A stretch of 64,000 nt of DNA, taken from positions 1 to 64,000 of the forward strand of contig JAIQEX010000020.1 in NCBI GenBank assembly GCA_020073615.1, read 5' to 3'. The notes below the pieces were generated by a model. That model searched no databases. It had not been told where the DNA came from and saw nothing but the letters and a program-made list of their open reading frames with translations. Positions 11,409-27,650 of this stretch are shown one piece after another; positions within the stretch are counted from its first letter, which is position 1, and each line of letters starts with the position of its first letter. This DNA comes from Terriglobia bacterium. GTDB taxonomy: Bacteria; Acidobacteriota; Terriglobia; Bryobacterales; Bryobacteraceae. The translations under genes and the position numbers were made by a program.

Positions 11409-12676
11409 AGATAACTTACCGCCCGTTGCCTTCACAGAAGCGGTTTCATCAACTGGATGGCCGCTTCAAGGGCTTTTCAGGACCGATTGGAAGCGGCAAG
11501 AGCCAGGCGCTCTGCCAGGAGGCTATACGGCTAAGTTACCTGAATCCGGGACGGATGGGGCTGCTGGGCGCGCCAACGTACCCAATGCTGCGAGATGCCA
11601 CGCAAGCAACGCTGTTCGAGATTCTGGAGGGAAGCAGGATCGCGTACGACCACAGTAAGGCAGAGAACGTAGTAGTTATCAAAGACACCCGTTCACGAAT
11701 ACTGTTCAGGCCGGTGGATGAGTTTGAACGGCTGCGCGGGACTAACCTGGCATGGTTCGGGCTGGACGAGTTGACTTACACGCAGGAGGAGGCGTGGCTG
11801 CGGCTGGAGGGGCGGCTGCGCGATCCCAAAGCTACGCGGCTTTGCGGATTCGCGGTGTGGACGCCGAAGGGTTACGACTGGGTGTACCGGAGGTTCATCG
11901 CCGACAAGGTGGGGGGATACCAGACGGTGCTGGCGAGGCCGTTTGAGAACCGGTACCTGCTGGACCGCATACCGGATTTCTACGACCACCTGAAGGACAG
12001 TTACGACCAGAAGTTTTATGAGCAGGAAGCGCTGGGGTCGTATCTGAACATGACCGGCGGGACGGTGTACAGCACATTCTCGCGGGGCACACATATCACG
12101 GAGTTGAGCGTACTGCCGCATTTACCGCTGTTCTGGACGATGGATTTCAACGTGGATCCGATGAGCTCGCTGATTGTGCAGATGGCGTACGGGAAGGTGC
12201 GGGTGCTGGACGAGATCGTGCTGCGGAATGCCACCACGAACGAGGCGTGCGAGGAGTTTCTGAAGCGGTATCCGAAGCACGATGCGGGGGTGGTGGTATA
12301 CGGGGACGCTTCGGGATTCCACAACCAGACGACGGGGGCGTCGGATTACGAGATGGTGCGGGAATACTTTCAGATCCACTCGACGACGCCGGTGCAGTAC
12401 CGGGTACCGAAGTCGAATCCCAGCGTACGGGAGCGCATCAACCTGACCAATGCGAGGCTGCTTTCGGCGGCGGGGGAGGTTGGGCTGGCGGTGGACAAGA
12501 AGTGCAAGGAGCTGATCAAAGACTTCGAGCAGGTGGCCTATAAGGCCGAGACGAACCTGATCGACAAGGACCGGGACCGGCTGCGGACCCATCTGTCGGA
12601 TGCGCTGGGGTATCTGTTGTGGCAGGAGTGCCGGGCGCTTCCGGTGGTGGGGGAGAGGCCGCAGAGGTTGTTCTAG
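11369..12676 (+). CDS. Phage terminase large subunit
   Basis: The 435-aa protein starts at MGRTVSDVRP; the 503-aa track ORF is extended into the previous gene in the wrong frame. The N-terminal packaging ATPase has Walker A GPIGSGKS (about residue 34), the family's GAPTYPMLRDAT segment and Walker B WFGLDEL. The C-terminal nuclease has MDFNVDPM, VVYGDASG and HLSDALGYLLW, which supply the metal-binding aspartates of an RNase H-like fold. It would cut and pump DNA into proheads. All key motifs are present, so the enzyme looks functional. The ATG follows a GGAG. Confidence 0.92.
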   Translation: MGRTVSDVRPKRVEITYRPLPSQKRFHQLDGRFKGFSGPIGSGKSQALCQEAIRLSYLNPGRMGLLGAPTYPMLRDATQATLFEILEGSRIAYDHSKAENVVVIKDTRSRILFRPVDEFERLRGTNLAWFGLDELTYTQEEAWLRLEGRLRDPKATRLCGFAVWTPKGYDWVYRRFIADKVGGYQTVLARPFENRYLLDRIPDFYDHLKDSYDQKFYEQEALGSYLNMTGGTVYSTFSRGTHITELSVLPHLPLFWTMDFNVDPMSSLIVQMAYGKVRVLDEIVLRNATTNEACEEFLKRYPKHDAGVVVYGDASGFHNQTTGASDYEMVREYFQIHSTTPVQYRVPKSNPSVRERINLTNARLLSAAGEVGLAVDKKCKELIKDFEQVAYKAETNLIDKDRDRLRTHLSDALGYLLWQECRALPVVGERPQRLF

Positions 12677-12709
12677 GGAGCGACCGGGGGCGCGGAGGAG
12701 AAAACATTG

Positions 12710-12795
12710 TTCACCGCCGAGACGCAGAGACGCCGAGGAAAAGCAGGTAAGGCAAGTCACGCCCGTTCTCGGCGCCTCCGCCTCTCGGCGGTGAA
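12710..12795. repeat. Imperfect 28-bp inverted repeat, dispersed MITE/REP-like element
   Basis: A left arm starting TTCACCGCCGAGA (12710-12737) and a right arm ending TCTCGGCGGTGAA (12768-12795) match over 28 bp with three or four mismatches around a 30-bp spacer. The sequence style (CCGCCGAGACGCAGAGACGC) is that of short GAG/CAGAG-rich elements scattered between genes in many soil bacteria. Further GCAGAGGAAGCAGAG-like words follow to about 12830. It fills most of the 190-bp gap between terL and portal and has no coding potential. Confidence 0.7.
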
Positions 12796-12866
12796 TAAAG
12801 AACGCTGAGGGCGCAGAGGAAGCAGAGAAGGCGGGCGGGGGAGCGAAGGGGACGACGGAATTGAGT

Positions 12867-14243
12867 ATGGAAAACATCAACCGGGAGCATCCGGAGTATG
12901 TCGCGCGCAAGGCGATGTGGAGACAGTACAAAGACCTGTACGCGGGCGGCGAACAGTTGCGGGCGAGTGCCGCGGAATACCTGGTGCGGAGACATAAGGA
13001 GCCGGGGGAGGTGTACCAGGAACGGCTGAACCGGGTGTTCTACCAGAACTACATCGGCTCGATCATCGACTGGTATTCGGCGACACTGATGCGGCGCGAG
13101 CCGGTGCTGCTGTTTGAGGGGAGCGACGCGGCGGCGAAGGGGTTCTACAACGTGCTGGGGGAGGACTGCGACCTGAAAGGGACGAATCTCAGCGAGTTTT
13201 TCCGGCAGCGGTTCGTGGAGATGGCGGTGTGCGGGAGCAGTTACATCGTGGTGGACTTTCCGCGTGGGGGAGGCGGGGACAGGCCGGCGCCGCTGACACG
13301 GGCGGAAGAGGACGCCTCGGGCAGATCGCGGGCGTACCTGGTGGATTACGGGCCGGACGAGGTCATCAACTGGAGCTACGACCAGACGGGCGGGCTGGAA
13401 TGGGCGGTGATCCGGACGTCGTGCCTGCAGCAGTCGAAGGTGACGGACGCGAAGTGGGAGAAGGAGACGCGATGGATTTACTACGATCGCGAAAACTTCC
13501 AGGTATTCCGGAAGAGGCGCGAGGAGAGCGCGATCGAGCTGGTGGACGAAGGGCGGCACGGCCTGGCGGCGCTACGGCGGGTGCCGATGTTTCAGATGAA
13601 GGTGAGCGAGGGGCTGTGGCTGATGAACAAGTCGGCGCTGCTGCAGATGGAGCACTTCAACAAATCGAATGCGCTTTCGTGGGCGCTGACGATGGGGCTG
13701 TTCGCGACCCCGGTCGTATATTCGGACCGCGAATGGAACCAGATTGTGGGCGAATCCTATTACATCCAACTGGGGCCCAACGATAAGTTCGGGTGGACGG
13801 AGCCGGAGGGAAAGGTCTACCAGATCGCGGCGGACAACCTGGTGCAGCTCAAGGACGAGATTTACCGGGTTTGCTACCTGATGAACCAGGCGGGGAGCTC
13901 GAGCGGACTGAACCAGTCGGGGCTGAGCAAGCAGATGGATTTCGCGACGACGCAGGAGGTACTGCGGGCGTACGGCGATGCGGTGAAGGAGAGCCTGAAG
14001 CAGGTGTTGTGGGCGATCGCGGCGGCGCGGCAGGACGGGGTATCGATCGACGTACAGGGGCTGGACGAGTTCGACATCAACGCGCTGGGCGGGGAGTTGG
14101 ACGATGCCAAGAAGCTGCTGGATCTGGGGATCGGGTCGGAGACGCTGAAGAAGCAGGTGTTCAAGAAGCTGGCGTTCAAGTACCTGTGCGACGCACGGCA
14201 GGAGATTAAGAACAGGGTGGCGGAAGAGATCGACGGGGGGTGA
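12867..14243 (+). CDS. Phage portal protein (DUF4055-like)
   Basis: The 458-aa protein begins at MENINREHPEYV; a TTG six bases upstream is also possible. The N-terminal stretch YLVRRHKEPGEVYQERLNRV followed by DWYSATLMRREPVL resembles DUF4055-type portal proteins, and the order terL-portal-scaffold-capsid supports the call. The middle has mixed beta structure around a W- and Y-rich core (WSYDQTGGLEWAVIRT; WIYYDRENFQVF), and the end is helical (LSKQMDFATTQEVLRAYGDA). Portals form the dodecameric channel through which DNA enters. Length is normal and there are no stops or frameshifts. Confidence 0.82.
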   Translation: MENINREHPEYVARKAMWRQYKDLYAGGEQLRASAAEYLVRRHKEPGEVYQERLNRVFYQNYIGSIIDWYSATLMRREPVLLFEGSDAAAKGFYNVLGEDCDLKGTNLSEFFRQRFVEMAVCGSSYIVVDFPRGGGGDRPAPLTRAEEDASGRSRAYLVDYGPDEVINWSYDQTGGLEWAVIRTSCLQQSKVTDAKWEKETRWIYYDRENFQVFRKRREESAIELVDEGRHGLAALRRVPMFQMKVSEGLWLMNKSALLQMEHFNKSNALSWALTMGLFATPVVYSDREWNQIVGESYYIQLGPNDKFGWTEPEGKVYQIAADNLVQLKDEIYRVCYLMNQAGSSSGLNQSGLSKQMDFATTQEVLRAYGDAVKESLKQVLWAIAAARQDGVSIDVQGLDEFDINALGGELDDAKKLLDLGIGSETLKKQVFKKLAFKYLCDARQEIKNRVAEEIDGG

Positions 14244-14250
14244 GAAGACA

Positions 14251-14363
14251 GGGGCCGGGGGCCAGGGGCCAGGGGCTGGGGGCCAGGGGCCAGGGGCCGG
14301 GGGCCGGGGGCCGGGGGAAGGTGGCCTTCGGCTGCTTTTTTTGGGCTCGCTGCGCTCGCGGGG
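14251..14363. repeat. G-rich composite repeat, copy 1 (upstream of scaffold gene)
   Basis: Runs of GGGGCC and GGGGCCAG repeat about ten times (14251-14318), then a CTTCGG stem and T-run, then GGGCTCGCTGCGCTCGCGGG. The same three blocks in the same order and orientation recur at 15952-16042 after the capsid gene. The G-runs could form quadruplex structures. It lies in the 158-bp gap between portal and scaffold genes. Confidence 0.75.
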
Positions 14364-14401
14364 GGCCGGGTGGAATCAAGAGTAGGGAAGACAGGAGAGT
14401 T

Positions 14402-14953
14402 ATGGACGGAATCGACATTCAAGGGATCGTGCGGCAGGCGATCCAGGAGTTCGTGAACAACGAGCAGGCGAAGAATGAGCCGGCGCACAGGGCGGAACTG
14501 GTTGAAGAGCGCAAGCGGAGAGAGCAACTGGAGCGCCGGATGAACGAATTGGTGGCGGAGAACAAGCACAGCCGGCAGGTGGCGGCGGAAGCGGAACGAG
14601 GGTCGGCGGTGAGGGCGGAATTGCAGCGGCTGGGCGTGGCCAAGATCGACCTGGCGTTCAAGGCAGTACAGGACGGGATCGTGCGCACGGAGGATGGGCG
14701 GCTGGTGGCCAAGGGCGAGAGCGGGGAGATGCCGGTGAAGGAATATCTCACGGCGTTCGTCAACGAGAATCCGGAATTTTTGCCGGCGCGCATCGCGGGG
14801 GGGACCGGGATGACGGCGACCCTGAAGGCCCCGGCAACGGGACGGGAGACGGTGAGCATGGAACAGATCCGTCCGGGGATGAGCGCGGAAGAGATGCAGC
14901 GGGTACGAGAGGAAATCGTGCGCGTAGCGTCGCAGACCCTGAAGGGCCTGTAG
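14402..14953 (+). CDS. Putative capsid scaffolding protein
   Basis: The 183-aa protein starts at MDGIDIQGIVRQAI with a GGAG ribosome site. Residues 1-80 are strongly helical and charged (ERKRREQLERRMNELVAENK), the typical coiled coil of phage scaffolds. The middle (LGVAKIDLAFKAVQDG) and the C-terminal end (MSAEEMQRVREEIVRVASQT) are also helical. Position immediately before the capsid gene is decisive; no protease motif is visible, so it is probably not a protease-scaffold fusion. Scaffold proteins direct prohead assembly and then leave. Confidence 0.7.
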   Translation: MDGIDIQGIVRQAIQEFVNNEQAKNEPAHRAELVEERKRREQLERRMNELVAENKHSRQVAAEAERGSAVRAELQRLGVAKIDLAFKAVQDGIVRTEDGRLVAKGESGEMPVKEYLTAFVNENPEFLPARIAGGTGMTATLKAPATGRETVSMEQIRPGMSAEEMQRVREEIVRVASQTLKGL

Positions 14954-15040
14954 AGAAGTACCGGCGCTAAGAGGGAACCGGCGGAAGGGCCGCCGGCGCT
15001 AGTGGCGGCGGCAAGAACAACCAAGAAAGAAGGAGAAAAG

Positions 15041-15952
15041 ATGGCAGCAATAACCTCAACAAACGTCGCTAACGCGATCGTGAAGCTGGTGGCGGCGGAC
15101 GCATTGCCGGTGCTGGTAGGAAACCTGGTGATGGGGAACCTGGTGAATCGGGATTACGAGCCGGTGCTGGCGCAGGCCGGCGACACGATAAACGTGCCGA
15201 TTCCGCCCGTGATGGTGGCCAACAACATCCTGGAAGGCGGGACGGTGCAGACGCAGAATCCGAGTCTGGGGAACGCGCAGATCGTGCTGAACACGCACGC
15301 GGAGGCGACGTTCCAGATTCCGGACGTGACCAAGGTGCTGGCGGTTCCGGATCTGTTGAAGATCTACATGCAACCGGCGGTGGCGGCGATCGCGCAGAGA
15401 GTGGAGAGCGATCTACTGAGTCTGTACGCGGGATTCACGGCGAACGCCGCGGTGGGAACGCCGGGGACGCCGATCACGGAAGCGACGATCGACGCGGCGG
15501 AAACGGCGCTGTTTCTGTCGAAGATTCCGCCGAGCGAGCAGAAGTTCATGGTGGTGGATGCGGCGACGTATTCGACGTGGCGGCAGATCCCGCGGTTCAG
15601 CGAATTCCAGACCGCGGGGGACGCGGGGCTACGGGCGATCGTGGACGGGACGGTGGGGAAGGTGAAAGACTTCTTCGTGTTCCGTTCGCAATTCGTGCCG
15701 AAGACGGGGAGCACCCCGGTAACGACGCACAACATTGCGTTCGCGAAGGACGGTCTGGGGCTGGTGATCCGGCGGCTGCCGCAACCGCTGCCGGGGACGG
15801 GCGCCATTGCGGAGTATGCCGAGCTGGGCAACTTCGGGATGCGCGTGGTGATGAGCTACCAGCCGAACACACTGGCCCAACAGTTCACGGTGGATATTCT
15901 GTACGGCTGCGGCGTGCTGCGGAATGCGTCGGGCGTGCAGGTGAATACGTAG
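15041..15952 (+). CDS. Major capsid protein
   Basis: The 303-aa protein starts at MAAITSTNVANAI, preceded by AAGGAG seven bases upstream, one of the best ribosome sites in the cluster, as expected for the most abundant protein. Features are those of HK97-fold coats of the P22-gp5-like type: N-terminal helix, the early segment NRDYEPVLAQAGDTINVPIP, a long spine-like helix (VAAIAQRVESDLLSLYAGFT), ATIDAAETALFLSKIPPSEQ, and a beta-rich P-domain end (GMRVVMSYQPNTLAQQFTVD). A 7-bp perfect hairpin (CCGGCGG/CCGCCGG, 14978-14996) lies in the leader and may stabilise or attenuate the message. There is no sign of a cleaved delta domain. Confidence 0.82.
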   Translation: MAAITSTNVANAIVKLVAADALPVLVGNLVMGNLVNRDYEPVLAQAGDTINVPIPPVMVANNILEGGTVQTQNPSLGNAQIVLNTHAEATFQIPDVTKVLAVPDLLKIYMQPAVAAIAQRVESDLLSLYAGFTANAAVGTPGTPITEATIDAAETALFLSKIPPSEQKFMVVDAATYSTWRQIPRFSEFQTAGDAGLRAIVDGTVGKVKDFFVFRSQFVPKTGSTPVTTHNIAFAKDGLGLVIRRLPQPLPGTGAIAEYAELGNFGMRVVMSYQPNTLAQQFTVDILYGCGVLRNASGVQVNT

Positions 15953-16042
15953 GGGCCAGGGGCCAGGGGCCGGGGGCCGGGGGCCGGGGGAGTGTTGGGC
16001 CCTTCGGGCCCGGCTTCCTTTGGGCTCGCTGCGCTCGCGGGG
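15952..16042. repeat. G-rich composite repeat, copy 2 (downstream of capsid gene)
   Basis: This second copy repeats the GGGGCC/GGGGCCAG array (15952-15991), followed by the hairpin GGGCCCTTCGGGCCC and then GGGCTCGCTGCGCTCGCGGG. It begins at the last base of the capsid stop codon. Together with copy 1 it brackets the scaffold-capsid pair in direct orientation. Confidence 0.75.
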
Positions 16043-16091
16043 TTGGGGGCCGGGCTTCCGGCGCCAAGAGCTCGGACATTTATAGCAGGGG

Positions 16092-16187
16092 CAATTCGGG
16101 GACAGGCAACGAAATTCCGCGGCGCGGGCTTTTTTTGTTTTCTTTTGGATTTCGTGGCGCGGAATTTCGAAGCCAGTCCCCGAATTG
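16092..16187. repeat. REP/BIME-like long hairpin
   Basis: Arms starting CAATTCGGGGAC (16092) and ending GTCCCCGAATTG (16187) pair over about 35 bp with five mismatches around a T-rich loop. AATTCGGGGACAG-type palindromes are a recurrent intergenic element in many bacteria and are often linked to RAYT (REP-associated tyrosine) transposases. It lies just before the ribosome site of the next phage gene and could also shape the mRNA. Confidence 0.75.
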
Positions 16188-16205
16188 AGAAAGAGGAGGA
16201 CGAGG

Positions 16206-16532
16206 ATGGATTTGAAGCTGTATTACCAGAAGATTCGTGACGTGGAAGCGAAGATCGTGGAGGCGTTTCCGGTGGTGGTGAGCCGGGAGACGGGGGACGG
16301 CGGCAAGGAAGGAATGCTGACGGAGACGACGCGGGCGATCGCCGCGAAGATGATCGCGGATGGAGCGGCGCGGCTGGCGAAGCCGGAGGAAGTGAAGGCG
16401 TTTCAGGAAGGGCGGGCGGAGGCGGTGCGGCTGGTGGAAGAGGCGGCAGCCGCGGCGAAGGTGCAGTTCACCATGTTTCCGACGTCGGAACTGAGCAGGC
16501 TGAGAGGCGCATTGCGGCCAGCGAAGGATTAG
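16206..16532 (+). CDS. Small phage protein, probable head-completion or structural accessory
   Basis: The 108-aa product (MDLKLYYQKIRDVEAKI) is preceded by AGGAGG; the 115-aa track ORF starts too early. It is helical and Ala/Glu-rich (EGRAEAVRLVEEAAAAAKVQ) with a hydrophobic VEAFPVVVSRET strand. No family is recognised. Position between capsid and connector genes suggests a head-decoration or completion role, which is inference from synteny only. Confidence 0.6.
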   Translation: MDLKLYYQKIRDVEAKIVEAFPVVVSRETGDGGKEGMLTETTRAIAAKMIADGAARLAKPEEVKAFQEGRAEAVRLVEEAAAAAKVQFTMFPTSELSRLRGALRPAKD

Positions 16533-16540
16533 GCGGGGTC

Positions 16541-17302
16541 ATGGCTCTTTTCACAGACGGAGCGATATCGGGCATAGAAGATCTTACGGCGCAGGACTCG
16601 CAACTACTGAATGTGGCGAGCACGGAGGGGATCGACGTGACGCAGAAGCTGGCGGCGGCGCAAGAGGAGATCGGGCTGGAGATGCACACGCTGCTGACGA
16701 GGCTGAGCGGCATGGACCAACAGTTCTGGCTGGCCGCGCAACCGGACCTGGAGAGCGTGGTGGTGACGCCGGCACTGAGGCTGTGGCACACGTTCCGAGC
16801 TTTGGAGTTGGTGTACAGCGATGCGTACAACAGCCAGTTGAACGACCGGTACGCGGGGAAGCGGGACCAGTTCCACAAGATGGCGAAGTGGGCGTACGAG
16901 AAGCTGGTGGAGACGGGGATCGGGCTGGCATGGCTGCCGGTGGCGCGGGCGGCGACCCCGGTGGTGGCGGCGGCGCCGGGCAGCGTGCCGGACGGGACGT
17001 ACTACGTGAGCATGACGTGGACGAACCGCAACGGCGAAGAAGGGGCGGCGGCGATACCGGCGGCGATCACGGTTGCGGGGAGCACCTTCCTGGTGCAGCC
17101 CGGGGAAGCGCCGCGGAACGCGACCGGATGGAACGTGTACGTGGGCGAGGATCCGGGGGCGATGTCGCTGAAGAGCGAGGCGCCGATGGCACCGGAAGAG
17201 AGCTGGCAGGCGGGCGAATGGAAGACGGGAGGCCGGGCGCCAGGCTGCGGGCAATCGCCGAGCTACATGAAACCGGTGCCGCGGGTGATCCAGAGGGGCT
17301 GA
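16541..17302 (+). CDS. Head-tail connector-like protein with an Ig/FnIII-like C-terminal module
   Basis: In this 253-aa protein, residues 1 to about 140 are helical (IDVTQKLAAAQEEIGLEMHT; ALRLWHTFRALELVYSDAYN) and fit the place of a connector or adaptor. Residues from about 145 form a beta-rich module (VPDGTYYVSMTWTNRNGEEG; NATGWNVYVGEDPG) resembling one in the 1293-aa tail protein (LKSGETLYYAVSGSDGAGNE; FQVYRGTTP). Shared Ig-like modules in virion proteins often bind surfaces or sugars. Its TGA overlaps the ATG of the next gene. Confidence 0.62.
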   Translation: MALFTDGAISGIEDLTAQDSQLLNVASTEGIDVTQKLAAAQEEIGLEMHTLLTRLSGMDQQFWLAAQPDLESVVVTPALRLWHTFRALELVYSDAYNSQLNDRYAGKRDQFHKMAKWAYEKLVETGIGLAWLPVARAATPVVAAAPGSVPDGTYYVSMTWTNRNGEEGAAAIPAAITVAGSTFLVQPGEAPRNATGWNVYVGEDPGAMSLKSEAPMAPEESWQAGEWKTGGRAPGCGQSPSYMKPVPRVIQRG

Positions 17303-17799
17303 TGACGAAAAAGATCGGGAGCGCAATCACGGCCAAGGTCATTCAACGGATTACGGGTCCGGGGGGAGTGAACGCGGGACTGGGGGCACTGGAGCTGCCG
17401 GGGCAGGCGGCGGGCGGGCTGGATGCGGGCCAGGTGCGGTCGCAGAACGTGGCGGCGGACGTGGCGGAGCGCAGCGGGACGGCGCAGTATCCGGCGGCGA
17501 ACGTGTACTGCGAAAAGATCGTGAACAGCCTGGAGGAAAAGTTCCGCACGTTTTCGGGAAGCGTGCAAATGGCGATTGAGGTGCGGCATTCGCAGGACCG
17601 TCTGGAGGGCCTGGAAGACGCCGTGGAGCTATACGCGGACGCGGTGATGCAGGTGCTGAACGCGGGGCGGGGCGATTGGGGCGACGGCATGTTTTACGGC
17701 GGTGAATACCAGGTGTCGTTTGGGGCCGTGAAGCACGGGGGGAAGAACTTCATCCAGGCGGCCAAAATCACATTCGAGATTGGAGTGAGCAGGAACTAG
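17302..17799 (+). CDS. Putative tail completion / neck protein
   Basis: The 165-aa protein starts at MTKKIGSAITAKV, overlapping the previous stop (TGATG). The first 60 residues are Gly/Ala-rich with little predicted structure; the rest is amphipathic (VNSLEEKFRTFSGSVQMAIE; LEDAVELYADAVMQVLNAGR) and ends in a strand-rich segment (FYGGEYQVSFGAVKHGGKNF). Size and place between connector and tail-tube genes fit a tail-completion protein. No motif proves it. Confidence 0.6.
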   Translation: MTKKIGSAITAKVIQRITGPGGVNAGLGALELPGQAAGGLDAGQVRSQNVAADVAERSGTAQYPAANVYCEKIVNSLEEKFRTFSGSVQMAIEVRHSQDRLEGLEDAVELYADAVMQVLNAGRGDWGDGMFYGGEYQVSFGAVKHGGKNFIQAAKITFEIGVSRN

Positions 17800-17800
17800 T

Positions 17801-18973
17801 ATGTCCTCATATATTTCCTCAAACGCAAACCGGTTTTACACGGCGCTGGAGAGCGGGTACGGGAAGGTGCCGGCGATCGGATCGAGCGCAAGGATTCCGG
17901 CCGTGAAACTGACGGTGCGGCAGCAGCAGGAGGCCGCGGAGCGGAAAGACAAGACGGGCAGCCGGACGTTCGCGGGACGGCCGGCGGGAGGCCGGCGGCG
18001 GACGAACTTCGAGCTGAAGACGTACCTGACGACGTGGCAGAAGACGGCGGCGGGTCCGGGATACGGGCCGCTGTTTCAGGCGGCGCTGGGCGGGGCGCCA
18101 CAGTCCTTTGCGGGCGGGGCGGGATCGAGCACGGGCGCCGGGCGGGTCACCTTTGGAGCGGCGCACGGACTGAGCGCGGGACAGGCGGTGGCGTGCGGAG
18201 GGGAAGTGCGGTTTGTGGGAGCGATTGTGGACACGCACACGGTGCAGTTGAATGCGCCGTTTACGGCCGTGGGGAACGTGACCTTGGGGGCGGCGGTGAC
18301 GTACGCTCCGGCGACCGAGCTGGGGAGTGTGAGCGTATTCGACTACTGGAGCCCGGCGACGGCGGTGCAGCGGTTATTGTGCGGCGCGGCGGTGGACCAG
18401 ATGGAGATTGCGGTGAACGGGGACTACCACGAGTTTCAGTTCAGCGGCCTGGCACAGGATGTGCTGGACAGCAGCAGCTTCTCCGGCGGCCAGGCGGCGC
18501 AGCTTCAGAGCTTTCCATTGGAGCCGGCGGTGGACGCGTTCGATTATACGATCGTGCCGGGGAACATGGGGCAGGCGTGGCTGGGGACGTCGCCGACGCA
18601 GTTTTTCACGATCACCTCGGCGACCATCGCGCTGAAGAACGAACTGGACACGCGCTCGCGGGAGTTCGGATCGAACGTGCCGCGGGCGATATCGCCGGGG
18701 CAGCGGTCGGTTACGGCGGCCTTCGAACTGTTCAGCCTGGACGACGACGCGACGAAGGGACTGTACCAGGCGGCGCGGCAACAGTCGCCGATCAGCGTGA
18801 TGCTGCAGTTGTACGTGACGTGGGGGCTGCGGGGGGTTTCGGGGCTCCATGTGGACGGGGCTGAGGCGACGCCCGAGACGCTGGCCGAGGCGGGGCCGGA
18901 AGATCTGTTCCGGGAAGCGCTGGCGGCGGTGCGGGCGGAGACGGGGCTGAGCGGCGAAGAACGAAAAAACTGA
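17801..18973 (+). CDS. Tail tube (major tail) protein, with inserted domain
   Basis: This 390-aa protein starts one base after the previous stop. N-terminal and C-terminal parts (YGKVPAIGSSARIPAVKLTV; DYHEFQFSGLAQDVLDSSSF; SVTAAFELFSLDDDATKG) look like the beta-rich fold of tail-tube subunits. A short glycine/valine-rich insert at about residues 105-165 (GRVTFGAAHGLSAGQAVACG) looks like an added surface domain. The last ten codons form an acidic-basic tail (TGLSGEERKN). The final codons CGA AAA AAC TGA contain the heptamer AAAAAAC in the correct phase for a -1 shift into the ORF that follows, so a minor extended form of about 506 aa is predicted. Confidence 0.7.
   Translation: MSSYISSNANRFYTALESGYGKVPAIGSSARIPAVKLTVRQQQEAAERKDKTGSRTFAGRPAGGRRRTNFELKTYLTTWQKTAAGPGYGPLFQAALGGAPQSFAGGAGSSTGAGRVTFGAAHGLSAGQAVACGGEVRFVGAIVDTHTVQLNAPFTAVGNVTLGAAVTYAPATELGSVSVFDYWSPATAVQRLLCGAAVDQMEIAVNGDYHEFQFSGLAQDVLDSSSFSGGQAAQLQSFPLEPAVDAFDYTIVPGNMGQAWLGTSPTQFFTITSATIALKNELDTRSREFGSNVPRAISPGQRSVTAAFELFSLDDDATKGLYQAARQQSPISVMLQLYVTWGLRGVSGLHVDGAEATPETLAEAGPEDLFREALAAVRAETGLSGEERKN
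18964..18970 (+). other. Slippery heptamer A AAA AAC, candidate -1 programmed frameshift site
   Basis: The heptamer sits immediately before the tail-tube TGA, in the X XXY YYZ phase relative to the zero frame (CGA AAA AAC TGA). A -1 slip continues into CTG ATA GTC GCC, exactly the frame of the 116-codon ORF ending at 19320. A CCAACC/GGTTGG hairpin lies at 18998-19014, farther downstream than the usual stimulator distance. Confidence 0.7.
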
Positions 18974-19320
18974 TAGTCGCCTTCCACTTTCAATTTTCCA
19001 ACCAGGCCGGTTGGAAGTGCGACGTTTGCCGGAAGTCCGGTCTGGAGAAAAAGCGGCGCTGCGGGTGGCTGGCGGGGTTCGAGGATGGGGAGGGACCTCC
19101 GGTGTGGGCAAGGAAGCACGTCGCGCTGACGACTTGTCCGAAATCGTATATCACAGCGGAGAGCGAGTCGCTGGTGGAGGAGTTTTTCGTGAGGCGGCGG
19201 CTGGGTGGGTTCGATATCGAGGGGCTGAGCGCGCGGCAGGTGGAAGCATTCGTGATTCTGGAGAGGGCGCTGGCAGCAGAGAGGAACGATGGGCAGCACG
19301 ACACAAGACAAGCTCTTTGA
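18970..19320 (+). CDS. Tail-assembly-chaperone-like ORF without a start codon, read by -1 frameshift
   Basis: The ORF encodes about 116 residues with a Cys motif (WKCDVCRKSGLEKKRRCGW) and TTCPKSYITAES, giving four cysteines that could bind zinc, then a helical end (LVEEFFVRRRLGGFDIEGLS; QVEAFVILERALAAER). Between the previous in-frame stop (18862-18864) and GTG 19102 the frame has no ATG, GTG or TTG. GTG 19102 would cut off the first three cysteines. The simplest reading is production as a -1 fusion to the tail-tube protein, as with lambda gpG-GT. The place before the tape-measure candidate is where tail chaperones are encoded. The ORF overlaps the next gene by 32 bases. Confidence 0.65.
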   Translation: MIVAFHFQFSNQAGWKCDVCRKSGLEKKRRCGWLAGFEDGEGPPVWARKHVALTTCPKSYITAESESLVEEFFVRRRLGGFDIEGLSARQVEAFVILERALAAERNDGQHDTRQAL

Positions 19321-19942
19321 GAATTTCACGGAGGCCTCGGGCGGAGCGACGCAAGGGGCAGATTCGCTGGGCAGCCTGACCGACGAACTGGCAAGTGCGC
19401 TGACGGCGGCGACGCACGCGGCGAGCGCGGCACCGCAGGCCAGGCAGAGCACGAGCGGAACGGCGAGTACGAGCGGAACGGCGAGCACGAGCGGGAGCAG
19501 CGCGGGGAGCAAGGTATTGTCGATCGCGGAGACGGTGCTGGAGAGCGGCTTGGGGCTGGTGCCGCTGATTGGCGGGTTGTTGGGCCTGTTTGGCGGAGGG
19601 GGGCAGGCGGCGCCGCCTCCGCTGGTGAAGTACGCGATGCCGGAGAAGCAGTCCTTCGAGGGCGCGGATACGGGCAGCGGGATGAGCGACGCGGATTACG
19701 ACCAGATGGGGATGGCGCGGGCATACAGCGGCCCGCCGGATGGAGCGAGCGCGGCGCCGGCGAGCGCGGCCGTCTCCACGGGCGGCGGGGCGGCGGCGAG
19801 TGCCGGGGGGCCGCAGATCCACGTGAATGTGCAGACCATGGATGCGCAATCGTTTTTGGACCACAGCAACGAGATCGCGCAGGCGGTGCGGCAGGCGATG
19901 TTGAATTCCAGCTCGATCAACGACGTGGTGAACGACCTCTGA
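19289..19942 (+). CDS. Short tape-measure-like tail protein (tentative)
   Basis: The 217-aa protein starts at MGSTTQDKLFENF. It has a helical N-terminus, a repeated low-complexity stretch (STSGTASTSGTASTSGSS at about residues 55-72), one hydrophobic Gly/Leu-rich segment (GLGLVPLIGGLLGLFGGGG, about residues 87-105) and a helical C-terminus (LDHSNEIAQAVRQAMLNSSS). A hydrophobic segment in an Ala/Gly-rich protein after the chaperone-like ORF is what small tape-measure proteins look like. If so, it is very short and predicts a short tail. A minor virion protein delivered to the host membrane is the alternative. Confidence 0.5.
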   Translation: MGSTTQDKLFENFTEASGGATQGADSLGSLTDELASALTAATHAASAAPQARQSTSGTASTSGTASTSGSSAGSKVLSIAETVLESGLGLVPLIGGLLGLFGGGGQAAPPPLVKYAMPEKQSFEGADTGSGMSDADYDQMGMARAYSGPPDGASAAPASAAVSTGGGAAASAGGPQIHVNVQTMDAQSFLDHSNEIAQAVRQAMLNSSSINDVVNDL

Positions 19943-19943
19943 C

Positions 19944-20303
19944 ATGGCGACCTTTCCGAAGCTAAAGACGAGCGCGGTGGCGCAGTATCCGGCAACGAAG
20001 TCGGTGCGGTTTCAAAACCAGACCTTACGGTTCGTGGACGGCGCGGAGCAGCGCTACCGGGACTCGGCGGGACCGCTGCACCAATGGGAAATCCGGCTGG
20101 AGGAGCTGGACGAGAGCGAGATGGCGGCGATCGAGGAGTTCTTTGCGGCGAACCAAGGGCGGCTCGGGAGCTTCGCGTTCACCGATCCCTGGGACGGCCA
20201 TGCCTACGCAAATTGCAGCCTGGCGAGCGACGAACTGACGCTGCGCGCACTGGCGGAGATGCGGGGTAAGACGTCGCTGATTGTGAGCGAGAACCGGGGA
20301 TAG
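19944..20303 (+). CDS. Lambda gpM-like minor tail protein
   Basis: The 119-aa product contains the pattern of minor tail gpM-like proteins: FVDGAEQRYRDS, then WEIRLEELDESEMAAIEEFF and LGSFAFTDPWDGHAYANCS. In lambda, gpM joins the distal tail end before gpL. A second, related copy follows immediately (20307-21089), showing a tandem duplication. The start lies one base after the previous stop. Confidence 0.6.
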   Translation: MATFPKLKTSAVAQYPATKSVRFQNQTLRFVDGAEQRYRDSAGPLHQWEIRLEELDESEMAAIEEFFAANQGRLGSFAFTDPWDGHAYANCSLASDELTLRALAEMRGKTSLIVSENRG

Positions 20304-20306
20304 GAC

Positions 20307-21089
20307 ATGCTGGTATACCCACAACTAGCGACCGGGGCGTTGAGCCAGTTTCCGGTCGAGAAGCGGCGGCGCCTGCGCACGGTGGTGAACGCCGCGGCGG
20401 ACGGGAGGTCGATCAGACTGGCGGACCCGGCGGCGGAAGCGACGGAATGGCAGTTGCAATACGCGGGGCTGAGCGACGCGGAGCTAGCGGCATTGCAGCA
20501 GTTCTTCCTGGCCGCGGAGGGCTCGCTGAACGGCTTCACGTTTTTGGATCCGGCGGGCAACCTGTTCGCGTGGAGCGACCACCTGGACAACGCGGTGTGG
20601 GCGCGGGGGCCGTTCCTCGCGGTTTCGGGAGAGGTGGCGGACCCGATGGGCGGGAGCAACGCGTGGCACACGGTGAATTCCGGCGGGGGCGCGCAGAGCA
20701 TTACACAGACGCTGGGCGCGCCGGGTGGATACACGTATTGTCTCAGCGCATACGCCAGAGCGTCACAACCGGCGGTGGCGACTTTGCTGCGCGGCACGGA
20801 TCGCGCGGACCGGCAGGTGGGGACGGAGTGGAAGCGGATTGCGTTCGCGGGAACGGGCGATGCGAAGGCGGCATCGCTGGTGTTTGGCCTGGAGGCGCCG
20901 GCGGGGGCGGCACTCGATATTTTCGGACTGCAAGTAGAGCCGCAGGCCGGAGCATCCGGTTACAAAGCGGCGACCAGCGGCGGCGTGTACGAGAACGCGC
21001 GGTTTGGCGACGATACTTTTCGCTTTACCACGACAGCGCCGGATTGCCATTCGGCCACGGTGAATATTTTCCATGCAAGCCATCTCTGA
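20307..21089 (+). CDS. gpM-like minor tail protein fused to a jelly-roll (CBM-like) domain
   Basis: In this 260-aa protein, residues 1 to about 90 repeat the neighbouring gene's fold (EWQLQYAGLSDAELAALQQF; LNGFTFLDPAGNLF). Residues from about 95 form a beta-sandwich resembling carbohydrate-binding modules found in tail proteins (GGYTYCLSAYARASQP; GTEWKRIAFAGTGDAKAASL; LDIFGLQVEPQAGASGYKAA). This would place a possible sugar-binding domain at the tail tip. Its end overlaps the next gene by 17 bases. Confidence 0.6.
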   Translation: MLVYPQLATGALSQFPVEKRRRLRTVVNAAADGRSIRLADPAAEATEWQLQYAGLSDAELAALQQFFLAAEGSLNGFTFLDPAGNLFAWSDHLDNAVWARGPFLAVSGEVADPMGGSNAWHTVNSGGGAQSITQTLGAPGGYTYCLSAYARASQPAVATLLRGTDRADRQVGTEWKRIAFAGTGDAKAASLVFGLEAPAGAALDIFGLQVEPQAGASGYKAATSGGVYENARFGDDTFRFTTTAPDCHSATVNIFHASHL

Positions 21090-24000
21090 TCTGAAGGAAC
21101 AGGCGGTCACGGACACGCCGCTGCTGGTGTTCGATTGCCTGCTGCCGAACGGGCAGACGGAGCACTGGAGCACGCACCGGGTGACGGTGCCGGGGAAGAC
21201 GTACGAAGCCCGCGTGATGCAGCACAGCGCGTTCGACATACAGACGGCATCGGACCAGGGAATCGACGGGAGCCCGCGAATTTCGGTGGTGCTAGCCAAT
21301 GCGGACTCGCACTTTTCGGAAATCGCGCGAGAGATCGGATGGAAGGGCGCGCGGCTGACGGCGGGGTTCCTGTTTTACGATTTGCGGAACGACGTACCGC
21401 TGACGGATGTGGCGGTGGTATTTCAAGGGACCTGCAACCCGCCGGACGAGATCAAGGAATCGACGTTTCGCGTGACGGCGATCAACCGGATGAACCTGCA
21501 ACGGCTGCTGCTGCCGCAGGTACGGATTCAGCGGCGGTGCCCGTGGGAATTCCCCGCGACGGAAGATCAGAGGACGGAAGCGGTGGACGGCGGAGTGCAC
21601 GGGAAGTATTCGCGGTATTACCGCTGCGGATATTCGGCGGGGGTGAGCGGCGGCACGGGATTGCTGAATGGCGGCGGTCCGTTCACGTCGTGCGGGTACA
21701 CCAGAAGCGACTGCCAGGCGCGGGGGATGCTGAACCGGTTCGGCGGGCTGGAGTTCATTCCGCCGGCGATCGCGGTGCGCAGCTATGGAAAAGACTGGTC
21801 GACATCGGCCGTGGCGGTGAACCAGGCGAGGTACAACGACTTTGTTCCGATGGTGTACGGGACGGCGTGGTACGCGCCGACGGTGGTGTTCGCGCGCAAT
21901 GACGGCAACCTGACGCGGATGGAAGTGCTGCTGGGGATCGGCGAGATGCAGGGCGTGCTGACCGTGCTGGTGAACGACGTGGAGATTCCGATGGGGGTCT
22001 CGGGCACGAACATGACGGGCACGGGTTGGTACAACGTGATGACGCTGGGGACGCGCGACGGCAACTTCGACAACAACTTTCTGGACGCGAGCGGAAAGCC
22101 CGTGGGGGACCCCTACGGCAGCATGGCGTACCTGTCGGTAGTGGTTCCGAACCGGCTGAACAGCGGCACTTCGGCGCCCAGCGTGAAGGTGCTGGCACAG
22201 GGGCTGAAGGTGCCGGTTTACGCGGCGGACGGGACATACCTGGGCGAACAGTTCTCGAGCAATCCGGCGTGGATCCTGCAGGACGTGCTACGGCGGAGCG
22301 GGTGGGAATCGGCGGAGATCGATACCACCAGCTTCGCTGTGGCGGCGGCATACTGCGACGAAGCGATCCAGGCGAAGGACCTGAACGGAAACGCGATTGA
22401 GCTTTCGCGTTTTCAGTGCAACGTGGTGCTGCAAAGCCGGCGCAGCGCCGGGGACCTGGTGCGGGGGATCCGCAACACGGCGCGGCTATTCCTGACGTAC
22501 GGGCCGGGGGGGGCGCTGCAATTGGGCGTGGAGAACACGGCGGCGCTGGAACAGCCAAGCAAGGCGGCGGGGTCGAACAGCAAGGAATCCTTGGACGGGG
22601 GCTGGCCGAGCTACGAATTCGGCGATGGGAGCAACGGCTACTCGGGGATTCTACGGCGGCAGAATGGCGAGCCGAGCATCACGCTGACATCGCGCGGCAT
22701 CGCGGACACGCCGAACCGGCTGACGGTGGAGTTTCAAGATGCGCTGAACGGGTATCAGCAGGACAGTTACTCGATGGTGGACGCAGACGACGTGGCGCTG
22801 GCGGGCCAGGAAGTGTCCAAGACGCTCGCGGCGCTGGGGCTGCCGAACTACGACCAAGCCGCGCGGATTCTGAAATTCAACCTCGACAAAACAGTTCGCG
22901 GAAACACCTATATCGCGTTCGACACGAGCGTGAAAGCCTTTGGCATCCGGCCGGGCGACTTGATTACGGTGACGTACCTAAAGGAAGGCTTCAACCGGCA
23001 GCCGTTTCGCGTGCTGAAGATTTCGCCGGCAACGAACTACCGGACATCCACCATCACGGCGCAGATTCACGACGATGCGTGGTACGCGGACACGAACGGG
23101 CAGACGACGTCGGGCACGGGCGCGGCACAGCAAGGCGGCACCGGGATTGGCGTACCGAAGCCGCTGATGGGCAGCGTGGTGGACGACGACGGGGAGATTG
23201 AGTTCGGGGTGGAGGAGACCTCGGAGGCGAGCGGCGATGGAACGGCGGAAGCGAGCGTGTCGGTGAGTTTCATTCCGCCTGCGATGGCCACGGCGGCAGG
23301 GCCGGGAATCCCACTGATCAGCCTGATCACGAACGTGGGAGCGGGCGGCACGCTGAAGAGCGGCGAGACGCTGTACTACGCGGTGTCGGGGAGCGATGGG
23401 GCGGGGAACGAGAGCGGCCTCTCGTTCATCGTGAGGGCGGTGATTGCGAGCGATGGGAGCGCGGTGACGCTCTCGGGGCTGAGCTTTGCGGCGGGAACGA
23501 GCGCGTTTCAGGTGTATCGCGGGACGACGCCGGCGCAGTTGTTCCGCATTGCTTCGGACCAGGCGGTGGCCAGCGAGTTTACCGATACGGGCCTGGCGAA
23601 GCAGTTGATCGCCCCGCCGGATGCGAGTTTCGATCACGCGAATTTCTATTGGCGGATGGAATTGCAGCCGGAAAGCGGAGTGACGGCACACGCGGCGACA
23701 ATGGTGGGCAACGGGGCGCTGGAGATGACGGCCAACGAATACCGCGGAATGACGGTGCGGATTACACGCGGCAACGGCGCAGGGCAAGAGCGGACGATCG
23801 CGGCGAACGACGCAACGAGCCTGACGATTGCGCCGCCATGGGTGGTGGAGCCCGATGCGGGGAGCTCTTTTGCGGTGGCGGAATCGGGGTGGCACTTCGG
23901 GGCGCTGACGAAGAGCAGCCCGGTGCAGTTTGCGATTCCGAACCGGCCGGGAGAGGTAGTGCAGATTTCGGGCCGCGCGGCCAACGTGAACGACGTGGAA

Positions 24001-24954
24001 TGCTCGCCGGAGCTTTCGACGGTGACGCGGTGGCAGATTGGCGGGGCGGGCGGCGGGGATGCGGACGTTCCGGCGCAACCGTCATTCGGCCTGGGGGCGG
24101 GGCAGAGCGGCGGAACGGTCGAGTTGAGCGGCATCTCGTTTACGGACCTGACGAACACGCGATCGGTTACGTCGGCCACTTTGACGCTGCACTACTGGGA
24201 CGAACTACAGGGAACACCGGCGATCGGTCTGGCGAATGCGATGGGGGCGGGCGACCTATCGCTGAGCCTGAATGCGGCCGGGCCGGGAGCAGTTGGGAGC
24301 ATTCTCCAGATTGAACGCGAGATTCTGCGGGTGGAGGAAGTGACCGACAACGGCACCGGATACCGGGTAACGCGTGGCGTTCATGGCAGCCAGACGGCCG
24401 CGCACGCGGCACAGACGCCGGTCTATCATCTGGCGAGTAAGACGGTCATAACGCCCTTTCCCCAAGAGTTCTTTGGCAGCGCGTACAGCGGAAGTTGGGG
24501 TTATTCCATCCTTCTGCCGGATGTAAGAGTCGGCAGCGCCGAACTGTTCGTTACGAATTCGAAAGGGAACAGCACGGCGGGAAGCATCTTTCTGACACAC
24601 AACGACGACAGCGGGCTGCGGACGCTCTCGGGCGGGCAGTACTCGATCCAGGTGGACGGATATCTGGCGGTGGATCAATCGGTGGCGCCGGCTTTGGTGG
24701 TGGAATCGTCACACGCGGTGCGGGACGTGTTCGCCATTCTCGGGACGGCAGCGGATGCGCCGGTGCAACTAGAGCTGAAGGCCGATGGCGCGCCGTACTG
24801 CACGTTGAGCTTCGCGGCGGGGATGATTGTTTCAAACAGCGTGAGCGGCACGACGCTGGCGCCGCTCACATCGGGGGCGAAGGTGACTTTGTCGGTAGTG
24901 TCGGTGGGCCAGACCTATCCGGGCGCGGACCTCACCGTACTGATCCGACTGTGA
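21073..24954 (+). CDS. Large tail-tip protein: gpL-like Cys domain joined to a gpJ-like hub
   Basis: The 1293-aa protein begins at MQAISDLKEQAVTD. Residues to about 165 look like a DUF2163/gpL-like N-terminus (LLVFDCLLPNGQTEHWSTHR). A four-cysteine segment at about residues 155-220 (RCPWEF; YYRCGYSAG; TSCGYTRSDCQARG; NRFGGLEF) matches the Fe-S-binding C-terminal motif of lambda gpL. It is followed by a long hub region of gpJ type (YNDFVPMVYGTAWYAPTVVF; LLGIGEMQGVLTVLVNDVEI; DRLTVEF-like strands). After about residue 700 come repeated Ig/FnIII-like modules. Lambda encodes L and J separately, so this is a fusion or an independent architecture. It probably forms the baseplate hub and host-contact structure. 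Confidence 0.7.
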   Translation: MQAISDLKEQAVTDTPLLVFDCLLPNGQTEHWSTHRVTVPGKTYEARVMQHSAFDIQTASDQGIDGSPRISVVLANADSHFSEIAREIGWKGARLTAGFLFYDLRNDVPLTDVAVVFQGTCNPPDEIKESTFRVTAINRMNLQRLLLPQVRIQRRCPWEFPATEDQRTEAVDGGVHGKYSRYYRCGYSAGVSGGTGLLNGGGPFTSCGYTRSDCQARGMLNRFGGLEFIPPAIAVRSYGKDWSTSAVAVNQARYNDFVPMVYGTAWYAPTVVFARNDGNLTRMEVLLGIGEMQGVLTVLVNDVEIPMGVSGTNMTGTGWYNVMTLGTRDGNFDNNFLDASGKPVGDPYGSMAYLSVVVPNRLNSGTSAPSVKVLAQGLKVPVYAADGTYLGEQFSSNPAWILQDVLRRSGWESAEIDTTSFAVAAAYCDEAIQAKDLNGNAIELSRFQCNVVLQSRRSAGDLVRGIRNTARLFLTYGPGGALQLGVENTAALEQPSKAAGSNSKESLDGGWPSYEFGDGSNGYSGILRRQNGEPSITLTSRGIADTPNRLTVEFQDALNGYQQDSYSMVDADDVALAGQEVSKTLAALGLPNYDQAARILKFNLDKTVRGNTYIAFDTSVKAFGIRPGDLITVTYLKEGFNRQPFRVLKISPATNYRTSTITAQIHDDAWYADTNGQTTSGTGAAQQGGTGIGVPKPLMGSVVDDDGEIEFGVEETSEASGDGTAEASVSVSFIPPAMATAAGPGIPLISLITNVGAGGTLKSGETLYYAVSGSDGAGNESGLSFIVRAVIASDGSAVTLSGLSFAAGTSAFQVYRGTTPAQLFRIASDQAVASEFTDTGLAKQLIAPPDASFDHANFYWRMELQPESGVTAHAATMVGNGALEMTANEYRGMTVRITRGNGAGQERTIAANDATSLTIAPPWVVEPDAGSSFAVAESGWHFGALTKSSPVQFAIPNRPGEVVQISGRAANVNDVECSPELSTVTRWQIGGAGGGDADVPAQPSFGLGAGQSGGTVELSGISFTDLTNTRSVTSATLTLHYWDELQGTPAIGLANAMGAGDLSLSLNAAGPGAVGSILQIEREILRVEEVTDNGTGYRVTRGVHGSQTAAHAAQTPVYHLASKTVITPFPQEFFGSAYSGSWGYSILLPDVRVGSAELFVTNSKGNSTAGSIFLTHNDDSGLRTLSGGQYSIQVDGYLAVDQSVAPALVVESSHAVRDVFAILGTAADAPVQLELKADGAPYCTLSFAAGMIVSNSVSGTTLAPLTSGAKVTLSVVSVGQTYPGADLTVLIRL

Positions 24955-27650
24955 TGGAACAGCTTACTAAGTTGCGGCCGGACCGCGACCTGCAATGTTA
25001 CTTTCACCGGCCTTCGTCGGCAGCGGCTCTGAGCGAAGCCAGCGCGAGCGGCTTTACGGTGTCGGGATGCTGGCGCCAGCAGTTCGACTGGGCAGTAGTG
25101 GAGTGGAACCGGGACAATGTCTTCGAGCATCCCGCTCTGCGCAACCTGCCCGACGGCGACTTGAGCAGCCTGCATCTCACCTACGAGGAAGCGCGCAGCA
25201 ACTGCGTAGGTCTCGATTCCAATCTTTACCCGACAGTGGAATGGCCGTATCTCAGGATTTGGGCCGATTCGAACGGGGTCGAGGCGCTTTACGAAGTGCC
25301 GCTCAAGAATCACGCGACGGCGACGGGCGGCAGCTACACGGCAGCAACGGCGGAATTCGAACTGGAAGGCACGCCGGCGGCGGGGGATTACATCGAGCTG
25401 GCCTGGCTGGATCAACATTTCAATTACCGGGTCGGGGCGGGCGACACATTGGAAAGCGCTGCCGGCGCGCTGGCGGCCATTATCACGGCCAACCAGGCCG
25501 CCGGCGGAGTCAGCGCATCGGCGGACGGGGCGCGGATTGTGCTGACATACCTCGGGGCGCCGGGCTCGAATGGAAACCGGATCGGCGTGTATGGGACCGT
25601 ACATGGCGTGGCGACCGAGAACTGGGCACCCTGGTGGAACACTTTCAGCGGCGGAACATCGCCCGACCGATGGCGAGTGGATCTGGATTTCAGCAACCTG
25701 CGGGACGTGAATGGGACGCAGGTTCCGACCTCGAGCGTTCGGAAGATGCGATGGACCTGGGCCGCCGATTTACAGACGGGGGACTTCGCGCGTAGCGAGT
25801 TCGCGGTTGTGGTTACGAACTGGACGGTCACGGGGACGAACCTGCTGTACGAGGTGGCGGGTCCGGGCAGCAGGCGGATTGAAGACGATGCGCCGGATGT
25901 CTCGTATGCGGGAGCGTGGACGGAAGAGCGTGGCAATTATTCGGGCGGATCAATCCGCTGGACTGCGACGCCGGGGGCGCAATTGCGCTGCACCTACACG
26001 GCGGGAGCGGCGCATACTTTGTACCTGGGAACACGGCGCGCGGATGCGGGCGGGCGGATCACGGTGCAGGTGGATGCGAATCCGTCGGAGACGGTGGATT
26101 TGAAGCTGAGCGGCGAAGACGTACTGGTGCGAGTTCCATTGGGACAGTTGACGGCACAAAGCCATGCCGTCACGATCACGCACAGCGGCAGCCCGGGATC
26201 GTACTTTTACTTTGACTTCATCGAGGTTGCGATACCGACTAATGTTGTGCCGTCATTCGGCGCGGTGGCGACGACTACGCTGGCTACCGATTGGGACACG
26301 GACCACTCCATTGCGATCGCTCCGCAGAGGACGGCATGGCTGCTCCAGACACTCGGCTTTCATGGCCGAGCCAACCATTACGCGGGGGCGCTGTGGTTTT
26401 ACGAGCTGTGCCGGCCCGGCCAGCAATACGCGGCAGGAACGGTCACGTTCGCGGGTGCCCCGGAATTCGGGAAGACGACGCAGGTTGTCGTGGGGCAATC
26501 CCCAATGACCCATGTAAACCTGATCGGCGACACGGCAGAGAGCGTGGCGAAATGTTTCGAGTTGCTGATCAACGCCGGATCGACCGGCGTGTGGGCAAGA
26601 GTGGAGGGCGCGACGCTCACGATCACGGCGCGCGCCATGGGGACCGAGGGCAACGGCACTGGTCTTTCGGCGAGCACCGGCAGCACGGGGTTCAGCGCCA
26701 TGGCAAGCGGCCCCGTGCTTGCGGGCGGCGTGGACGGGCGGTGGCAGACAGATCTGACTGCCGTGCCGCGCATGAACCGCGCGGCGCGCGACTGGAGTCG
26801 CAGCTATTTTCGGGCGTTGAAGGGCTACGGAATCGGCGTGGCGGCGGGGTTCAGCATGGAATTGCAGCACGGGGACGACAGCGTGGCGGCGGGGATCGCC
26901 CAGAGGTATCCGAATGGCGACGCGGCATGGCTGAATACTCCGGCATTGCAGACGAATTTCGGACCGGCCACCACAGCGTTCTGGAAGCAGGCCTATGCGG
27001 ACATGGCGGGGGTGATGGCGGACGCGGCGGTGCCGCCGTATCTGCAATTCGGCGAGGTGCAGTGGTGGTACTTCGCGGCTGCGTCGGGGATGCCGTTTTA
27101 CGATGCGTACACGACGAGCTCGTTCCAAGCGGCATACGGGCGGCCGATGACGGTCATCACGAGCCAGAACGCGGATCCCGGTCCGCTGGCGCAGGAGTGC
27201 GCGTTGTTGCCGAAGCTCATCGGCGAATTCACGGATGCGATCGCGGATTTCGTGCGGCAGACGTATCCCGACGCACGTTTTGAGGTGCTGTATCCGCCGG
27301 ACGTGAACGACACGCCGCTCAACAAGATCATCAATTTTCCAGCATCCTATTGGACACCGGCGAACCTGGCTTGCCTGAAGACGGAGAACTTTACCTACAC
27401 GGGCGACCGGAACCTGGACAAAGCGCGCGAGTCCATTGTGTTGCCGATGCGTAACGGGTTTCCGCCCTCACAGGCGAGCCACCTGGTAGGGATTGGCGAA
27501 TACACTACGCCGTGGCAGAAGGAACAACGGCTGGCACTCGGCGCGGGAGTGGAATCGATCGTTTTGTTTGCACTGGACCAGTTTTGTTTGATCGGTTACG
27601 ACTTGCCGCTGGATCGCGGTGCCCGCCGGGCCCTATTCATGGGCCGGTAG
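24954..27650 (+). CDS. Tail fibre / tailspike-like protein with possible glycosidase-type C-terminal domain
   Basis: The 898-aa protein starts at MEQLTKLRPDRDLQC, its ATG overlapping the previous TGA; the 1051-aa track ORF is extended in the wrong frame. The N-terminus has a cysteine and Trp-rich stretch (GFTVSGCWRQQFDWAVVEWN). The middle has beta-sandwich modules (GGSIRWTATPGAQLRCTYTA), and two segments (residues about 125-210 and 480-560) resemble one another (AAGDYIELAWLDQ..; GKTTQVVVGQSPMTHVNLIG). The last 320 residues look like an alpha/beta barrel with aromatic acidic patches (FGEVQWWYFAAASGMPFYDA; TYPDARFEVLYPPDVNDTPL), reminiscent of GTA and phage glycoside-hydrolase-like ends. Catalysis is not proven. 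It is the last gene of the cluster and overlaps the convergent ligase gene by 18 bases. Confidence 0.65.
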   Translation: MEQLTKLRPDRDLQCYFHRPSSAAALSEASASGFTVSGCWRQQFDWAVVEWNRDNVFEHPALRNLPDGDLSSLHLTYEEARSNCVGLDSNLYPTVEWPYLRIWADSNGVEALYEVPLKNHATATGGSYTAATAEFELEGTPAAGDYIELAWLDQHFNYRVGAGDTLESAAGALAAIITANQAAGGVSASADGARIVLTYLGAPGSNGNRIGVYGTVHGVATENWAPWWNTFSGGTSPDRWRVDLDFSNLRDVNGTQVPTSSVRKMRWTWAADLQTGDFARSEFAVVVTNWTVTGTNLLYEVAGPGSRRIEDDAPDVSYAGAWTEERGNYSGGSIRWTATPGAQLRCTYTAGAAHTLYLGTRRADAGGRITVQVDANPSETVDLKLSGEDVLVRVPLGQLTAQSHAVTITHSGSPGSYFYFDFIEVAIPTNVVPSFGAVATTTLATDWDTDHSIAIAPQRTAWLLQTLGFHGRANHYAGALWFYELCRPGQQYAAGTVTFAGAPEFGKTTQVVVGQSPMTHVNLIGDTAESVAKCFELLINAGSTGVWARVEGATLTITARAMGTEGNGTGLSASTGSTGFSAMASGPVLAGGVDGRWQTDLTAVPRMNRAARDWSRSYFRALKGYGIGVAAGFSMELQHGDDSVAAGIAQRYPNGDAAWLNTPALQTNFGPATTAFWKQAYADMAGVMADAAVPPYLQFGEVQWWYFAAASGMPFYDAYTTSSFQAAYGRPMTVITSQNADPGPLAQECALLPKLIGEFTDAIADFVRQTYPDARFEVLYPPDVNDTPLNKIINFPASYWTPANLACLKTENFTYTGDRNLDKARESIVLPMRNGFPPSQASHLVGIGEYTTPWQKEQRLALGAGVESIVLFALDQFCLIGYDLPLDRGARRALFMGR

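Follow-up and report, generated by a model that had tools for sequence, protein, structure and literature searches.

The closest described counterpart of the locus analyzed here is the G/GT gene pair of phage lambda, whose tail-assembly chaperone frameshift was reportedly described by Xu, Hendrix and Duda in 2004. In lambda, the G portion mediates binding of both products to the tape measure, and the tube subunit is bound by the T part (PMC5009743). The slippery heptamer A_AAA_AAC has been reported for the chaperone frameshift of the g-t genes of the haloarchaeal virus HCTV-2, and in E. coli it is much less shifty than A_AAA_AAG (PMC5009743). In a 64,000-nucleotide stretch of a draft genome of the Bryobacteraceae (contig JAIQEX010000020.1, positions 1 to 64,000; hereafter the window), we find a locus that we read, with a probability of about 0.92 and from comparison of sequences, as a programmed −1 frameshift of a lambda G/GT-type tail-assembly chaperone, carried in this one genome by a gene that a deletion has fused to the tail-tube gene. 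The likeness to lambda lies in a small ORF between the tube and tape-measure genes, a −1 heptamer at its 3′ end, an overlapping extension without a start codon, and one gene with two products, the last predicted here from the sequence. Unlike lambda's, the chaperone has no Pfam or PHROGs chaperone match, the site is A_AAA_AAC, and the signal is joined by a covarying H-type pseudoknot and a Cys4 T domain. HCTV-2, an archaeal tailed virus, shares both the heptamer and the kind of chaperone frameshift, a likeness that implies no relation to the virion-gene cassette described below.

The ORF at issue occupies 17801-18973 of the forward strand, encodes 390 residues, and ends in GAA CGA AAA AAC TGA. 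Direct reading confirms the initial annotation in placing the slippery heptamer A AAA AAC at 18964-18970 in X XXY YYZ phase ahead of TGA. The alignment defines a 5-nt spacer (18971-18975) that contains this zero-frame stop (18971-18973). In the −1 frame, the stop at 18862-18864 is followed by an open stretch that runs from 18865 to 19320 and contains no ATG, GTG, or TTG upstream of GTG 19102. The T-like extension of 116 codons (18970-19320, forward strand), read only after a −1 shift, carries invariant cysteines at its positions 17, 20, 31, and 56; as had been noted, a start at GTG 19102 would remove three of them (Cys 17, 20, and 31) and retain Cys 56. One candidate start had gone unmentioned: CTG at 18970-18972 overlaps the stop as CTGA and could serve as a rare start codon.

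Heptamer and phase are conserved among relatives while the preceding codon varies. Among 83 genome loci (window included), 81 carry an in-phase heptamer (80 AAAAAAC and one AAAAAAT), as do 80 of 80 loci on viral contigs (79 AAAAAAC and one AAAAAAT); in the viral contigs, for which the distant search was a single-sequence search, the site was located with the pattern AAAAAA[CT], and zero loci were left unmatched. The codon that precedes AAA AAC may be CGA, AGA, GCA, ATA, or GAA, and arginine at the site is encoded by CGA or AGA, which together account for 13% of the Arg codons in these genes, in which AAA makes up 20% of the Lys codons. Given an R-K-N ending and the codon usage of these genes, NNA-AAA-AAC would arise by chance in ~2% of cases per locus; the observed figures are 80/83 genome loci and 79/80 viral contigs. 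The two exceptions among the genome loci are L029, which has GAGAAAC and keeps T, and L013, which has neither the heptamer nor a detectable T. L029 (G017, around 3041) is the sole locus with T but without the heptamer, and a sequencing error or another shift site is possible there. Loci use TGA, TAA, or TAG as the zero-frame stop, and some place it many codons downstream; in four loci (L072, L073, L077, and L089) the zero-frame chaperone ORF continues 22-65 codons beyond AAC, and a stop adjoining the heptamer is therefore dispensable.

This variation also bears on how T is translated. The first −1 codon encodes leucine in all intact loci, as CTG (48 loci), CTA (22), CTC (8), CTT (3), or TTA (1), and since it varies in this way no start codon is conserved in the −1 frame; homologues with a proper start and no conserved heptamer, the pattern that would have spoken against frameshifting, are not what the relatives display. 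We accordingly rejected CTG as the start of T. An independent T gene, translationally coupled through a rare CTG start that overlaps the stop, would resemble common ATGA coupling and has the codon it needs in 48/83 loci, but the other loci have CTA, CTC, CTT, or TTA there, the stop changes identity and at times lies far downstream, and coupling accounts for neither the invariant, fixed-phase A run nor the pseudoknot; we regard this explanation as highly improbable.

The −1 frame itself behaves as coding sequence. When 12 pairs were compared past codon 28, mean pN/pS came to 0.36 in the −1 frame, with 1.14 and 1.71 for the other two; these values indicate purifying selection for protein past the slip region, and the four cysteines are invariant in 80/80 extensions. 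A distant T-like Cys protein from another class of the phylum (L103 in G288, 1393-1713) lies downstream of an in-phase GCA AAA AAC, an arrangement that suggests a frameshift signal older than the cassette of the Bryobacterales. A second candidate from another class, L104, matched T weakly and was set aside as unconvincing, and a tblastn search of phage records with T returned no match.

Downstream of the heptamer, the alignment of 117 dereplicated loci (A3) supports a feature absent from the initial annotation: a predicted H-type pseudoknot, backed by covariation, that begins 5 nt 3′ of the heptamer. Consensus folding of the downstream 60-120 nt gave a stem far above column-shuffled controls, and alifold on the upstream sequence found no structure. 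In window coordinates (forward strand), stem 1 would pair 18976-18986 with 19012-19023 in 11 bp, with U19018 bulged, and stem 2 would pair 19002-19010 with 19037-19045 in 9 bp. Taken together, the two stems are paired in 91.8% of cells, compared with 32-43% after sliding the partners by 1-3 columns, and contain 63 double-change cells against 15.4±3.4 in shuffles that ignore relatedness (0/500 reached by chance). Each stem is also significant alone, stem 1 with 96.7% of cells paired and 27 double-change cells (5.2 shuffled), stem 2 with 85.8% and 36 (10.8 shuffled). Because the shuffles ignore relatedness, changes were also counted on a tree, which gave 26 double changes that keep the pair, eight of which fall at a single pair (columns 27-102); breaks occur too, and the outermost pair of stem 2 is weak, being unpaired in 40/117 loci. 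Synonymous constraint likewise tracks the paired bases: valine at a paired position is encoded by GTC in 90/90 cases, whereas CAT and CAC are nearly balanced at an unpaired position (53/43). The pseudoknot rests on comparison because nested folding of the window RNA alone favors a different pairing, and Rfam contains no family that matches it.

The same features bear on the possibility that RNA polymerase, rather than the ribosome, slips on the A6 run. Nearly all loci do have the homopolymeric A6 that such slippage would need, but six A residues are short for efficient transcript slippage, and ribosomal slippage accords with the codon phase, the trailing C, the adjoining stop, and the 5-nt spacing of a covarying pseudoknot; we give the polymerase scarcely any weight. 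Four lines of comparative evidence, namely the kept heptamer and phase, the lack of a conserved start, purifying selection on the −1 frame, and pseudoknot covariation, give us very high confidence that the programmed −1 frameshift first proposed for this locus, with a start-less Cys-rich ORF as its target, is real. The signal has been naturally replicated in more than 100 divergent homologues, whose covariation allows the heptamer, the spacer, and both stems to be recognized.

The identity of the zero-frame gene, in contrast to the frameshift, had to be revised. The initial annotation took the partner to be a 390-aa tail-tube protein and set aside a lambda-like chaperone arrangement, which in fact is the general state among relatives. 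Of 151 related genomes searched, 85 (72/113 genera) had tube or chaperone matches, with tubes 29-87% identical, and the window ORF splits onto two of their genes: its residues 1 to ~340 correspond to a tube ORF of ~390 aa, and its residues ~336-390 to a separate ORF of 120-160 aa just 3′ of it, between the tube and tape-measure genes. The tube part (17801-18811, forward strand; residues 1 to ~337) has a phrog_290 match over residues 2-334 (E 2e-10) and lacks the last ~50 codons of its homologues. The final ~49-54 codons of the ORF (18812-18973, forward strand; profile A2), ending in ERKN-stop, belong to the 3′ part of the lambda G-like chaperone gene, fused in frame. The chaperone of relatives is ~120 aa long, with the consensus M.YES...SFGRR.EL.RRVRELA...WGL...GL.IDG...GPE.L.RE.L..V....GLSE.ERKN.

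Alignment with L003, with L064 (of the same genus), and with L033 leaves a single clean gap in the window, where 362 bp are missing relative to L003 and 508 bp relative to L064, which holds an extra GC-rich repeat within its tube-chaperone gap; this gap, deleted in the window, may be a deletion hot spot. The junction lies at about 18809-18811, where tube and chaperone sequences overlap by 2 nt (TG). The deletion took the last ~50 residues of the tube and the first ~72 of the chaperone and joined the rest in frame. The lost segments are found nowhere else in the window genome, which contains one copy of the tube DNA, and the fusion is absent from every relative examined, whether from a genome or a viral contig; the two genes are separate even in G001, of the same genus. 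Because the ORF splits onto two genes across a clean gap, with the segments lost and no relative fused, we conclude from the comparison that the window gene is most probably a tube-chaperone chimera produced by deletion, as seen in one draft assembly. Viral contigs contain long zero-frame ORFs that had seemed candidates for a natural fusion; these were rejected as out-of-frame readings of the tube, and neither the junction pattern nor its DNA had a match in those contigs.

Two other views of the fusion have to be weighed. An assembly or amplification chimera, with two genes in the real genome, would leave the frameshift reading unaffected; the case for it is that the fusion comes from a single draft genome of 252 contigs with an intact relative in the same genus, but an assembler could not make the join on a 2-nt overlap unless reads spanned the junction, and the lost segments occur nowhere else in an assembly that is 98% complete. 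We consider such an artefact unlikely and a deletion the better account of the fusion's origin. Alternatively, the tube gene could itself be the functional zero-frame partner, with a fraction of tube subunits receiving a Cys4 extension, which had been put forward as a new design. The window ORF is indeed open and in frame from the tube start to AAAAAAC, and the slippery site is preserved along with the bases of the pseudoknot; the chimera should therefore frameshift if expressed. Against this, no examined relative is fused, the long ORFs of the viral contigs are out of frame and lack the junction DNA, and the fusion has lost the conserved C-terminus of the tube together with 72 residues of the chaperone, of which there is no second copy; we judge a working fusion to be very improbable, and the chimera is most likely a recent lesion that would abolish function. 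The case illustrates how a local deletion, read from a single genome, can pass for a new design.

The chaperone and T families have no match in Pfam or PHROGs. AlphaFold gave confident models of the chaperone (pLDDT 90) and of T (pLDDT 89); Foldseek with the former retrieved phage proteins, some of them annotated as tail assembly chaperones, with mostly weak scores except for one unnamed phage protein (E 1.7e-9), and the T model had no match in the PDB at E<=0.001, nor did solved structures offer a credible match for these proteins. The putative Cys4 module of T is probably metal-binding. In the mechanism that we propose, a G-like chaperone of ~120 aa would normally be made in large amount, and the pseudoknot beyond the heptamer would slow ribosomes, a minority of which would slip −1 on A AAA AAC and append the T-like extension of ~110 aa with its Cys4 module. 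If the lambda roles carry over, the short tape measure would be coated by G, and T would bring in the tube subunit. In the window genome, the signal would now extend the chimera from 390 residues to about 506. The rate of frameshifting may be low because A_AAA_AAC is so much less shifty than A_AAA_AAG in E. coli, and its reported weakness there makes tRNA usage and pseudoknot strength testable.

The genomic setting may matter more. The locus lies in a virion-gene cassette of ~16.6 kb (11025-27650, forward strand) that comprises terminase, portal, scaffold, P22-like coat, neck, tube, chaperone/T, a short tape measure, two DUF2460 genes, hub, and a TIM-barrel tail protein. The tape-measure-like gene (19289-19942, forward strand; 217 aa) was assigned by its position and a match to phrog_3779 (tape measure, E 0.002). 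Gene order is identical in the genera examined, and flanking host genes are common to the window genome, G001, G060, and G073, which represent three genera. T occurs in 195/257 genomes of the Bryobacterales, nearly always as one copy, and is rare in the rest of the phylum sample. The tube tree shares 20/54 splits with the rpoB tree, where label shuffles gave an expectation of about 0.2 (earlier run); 11/13 supported tube splits are recovered in the rpoB tree with zero supported conflicts, and tube and rpoB distances have a rank correlation of 0.50, compared with a maximum of 0.34 in 500 permutations. The genes called in the cassette are virion genes, lysis and replication genes having been searched for less than exhaustively, and no integrase was found on contig C170. 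Because it is near single copy, order-wide, concordant with rpoB, and without an integrase on the contig, the cassette fits a domesticated, possibly gene-transfer-agent (GTA)-like element.

A cluster of this kind is known in the RcGTA of Rhodobacter capsulatus, whose DUF2460-type and hub genes stand in an order similar to that of the cassette. RcGTA also shares a chromosomal cluster of virion genes and a short tape measure of similar length (PMC7296036); unlike RcGTA, the cassette, known here from its genes alone, has a P22-like coat. Among the RcGTA models, only NF048004 (megatron) gave a hit in the cassette (E 0.0012; 16.6 bits against a cut-off of 800), a negligible similarity that places the cassette outside the RcGTA family by sequence. 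Judged by host order, IMG/VR entries, and gene order, which the two share, the cassette probably corresponds to the "group (i)" proviruses of the Bryobacterales, which include Ca. Solibacter usitatus and Paludibaculum and are called proviruses in their description (PMC11924767); the terms "frameshift", "gene transfer", "GTA", and "domesticat" are absent from the text of that paper. We regard as possible, at somewhat under even odds, the fuller picture of an undescribed order-wide GTA or other domesticated virion in which a pseudoknot-stimulated −1 frameshift adds a zinc-binding T domain and the window records a fresh inactivating deletion. That a phage-derived cassette concordant with the host tree has retained the signal across an abundant soil order argues that the cassette still assembles particles, and the GTA hypothesis becomes directly testable for the Acidobacteriota.

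Two minor observations concern the cassette itself. A GC-rich repeat, GGCCAGGGGCC, recurs between its genes (14235-14380 and 15950-16060) in five exact copies, compared with 0.09 expected, and the GC-rich repeat of L064 in the tube-chaperone gap is one of this kind. At the cassette's end, the 898-aa tail protein (24954-27647) contains a non-contractile tail sheath TIM-barrel domain (PF23845, E 9e-17).
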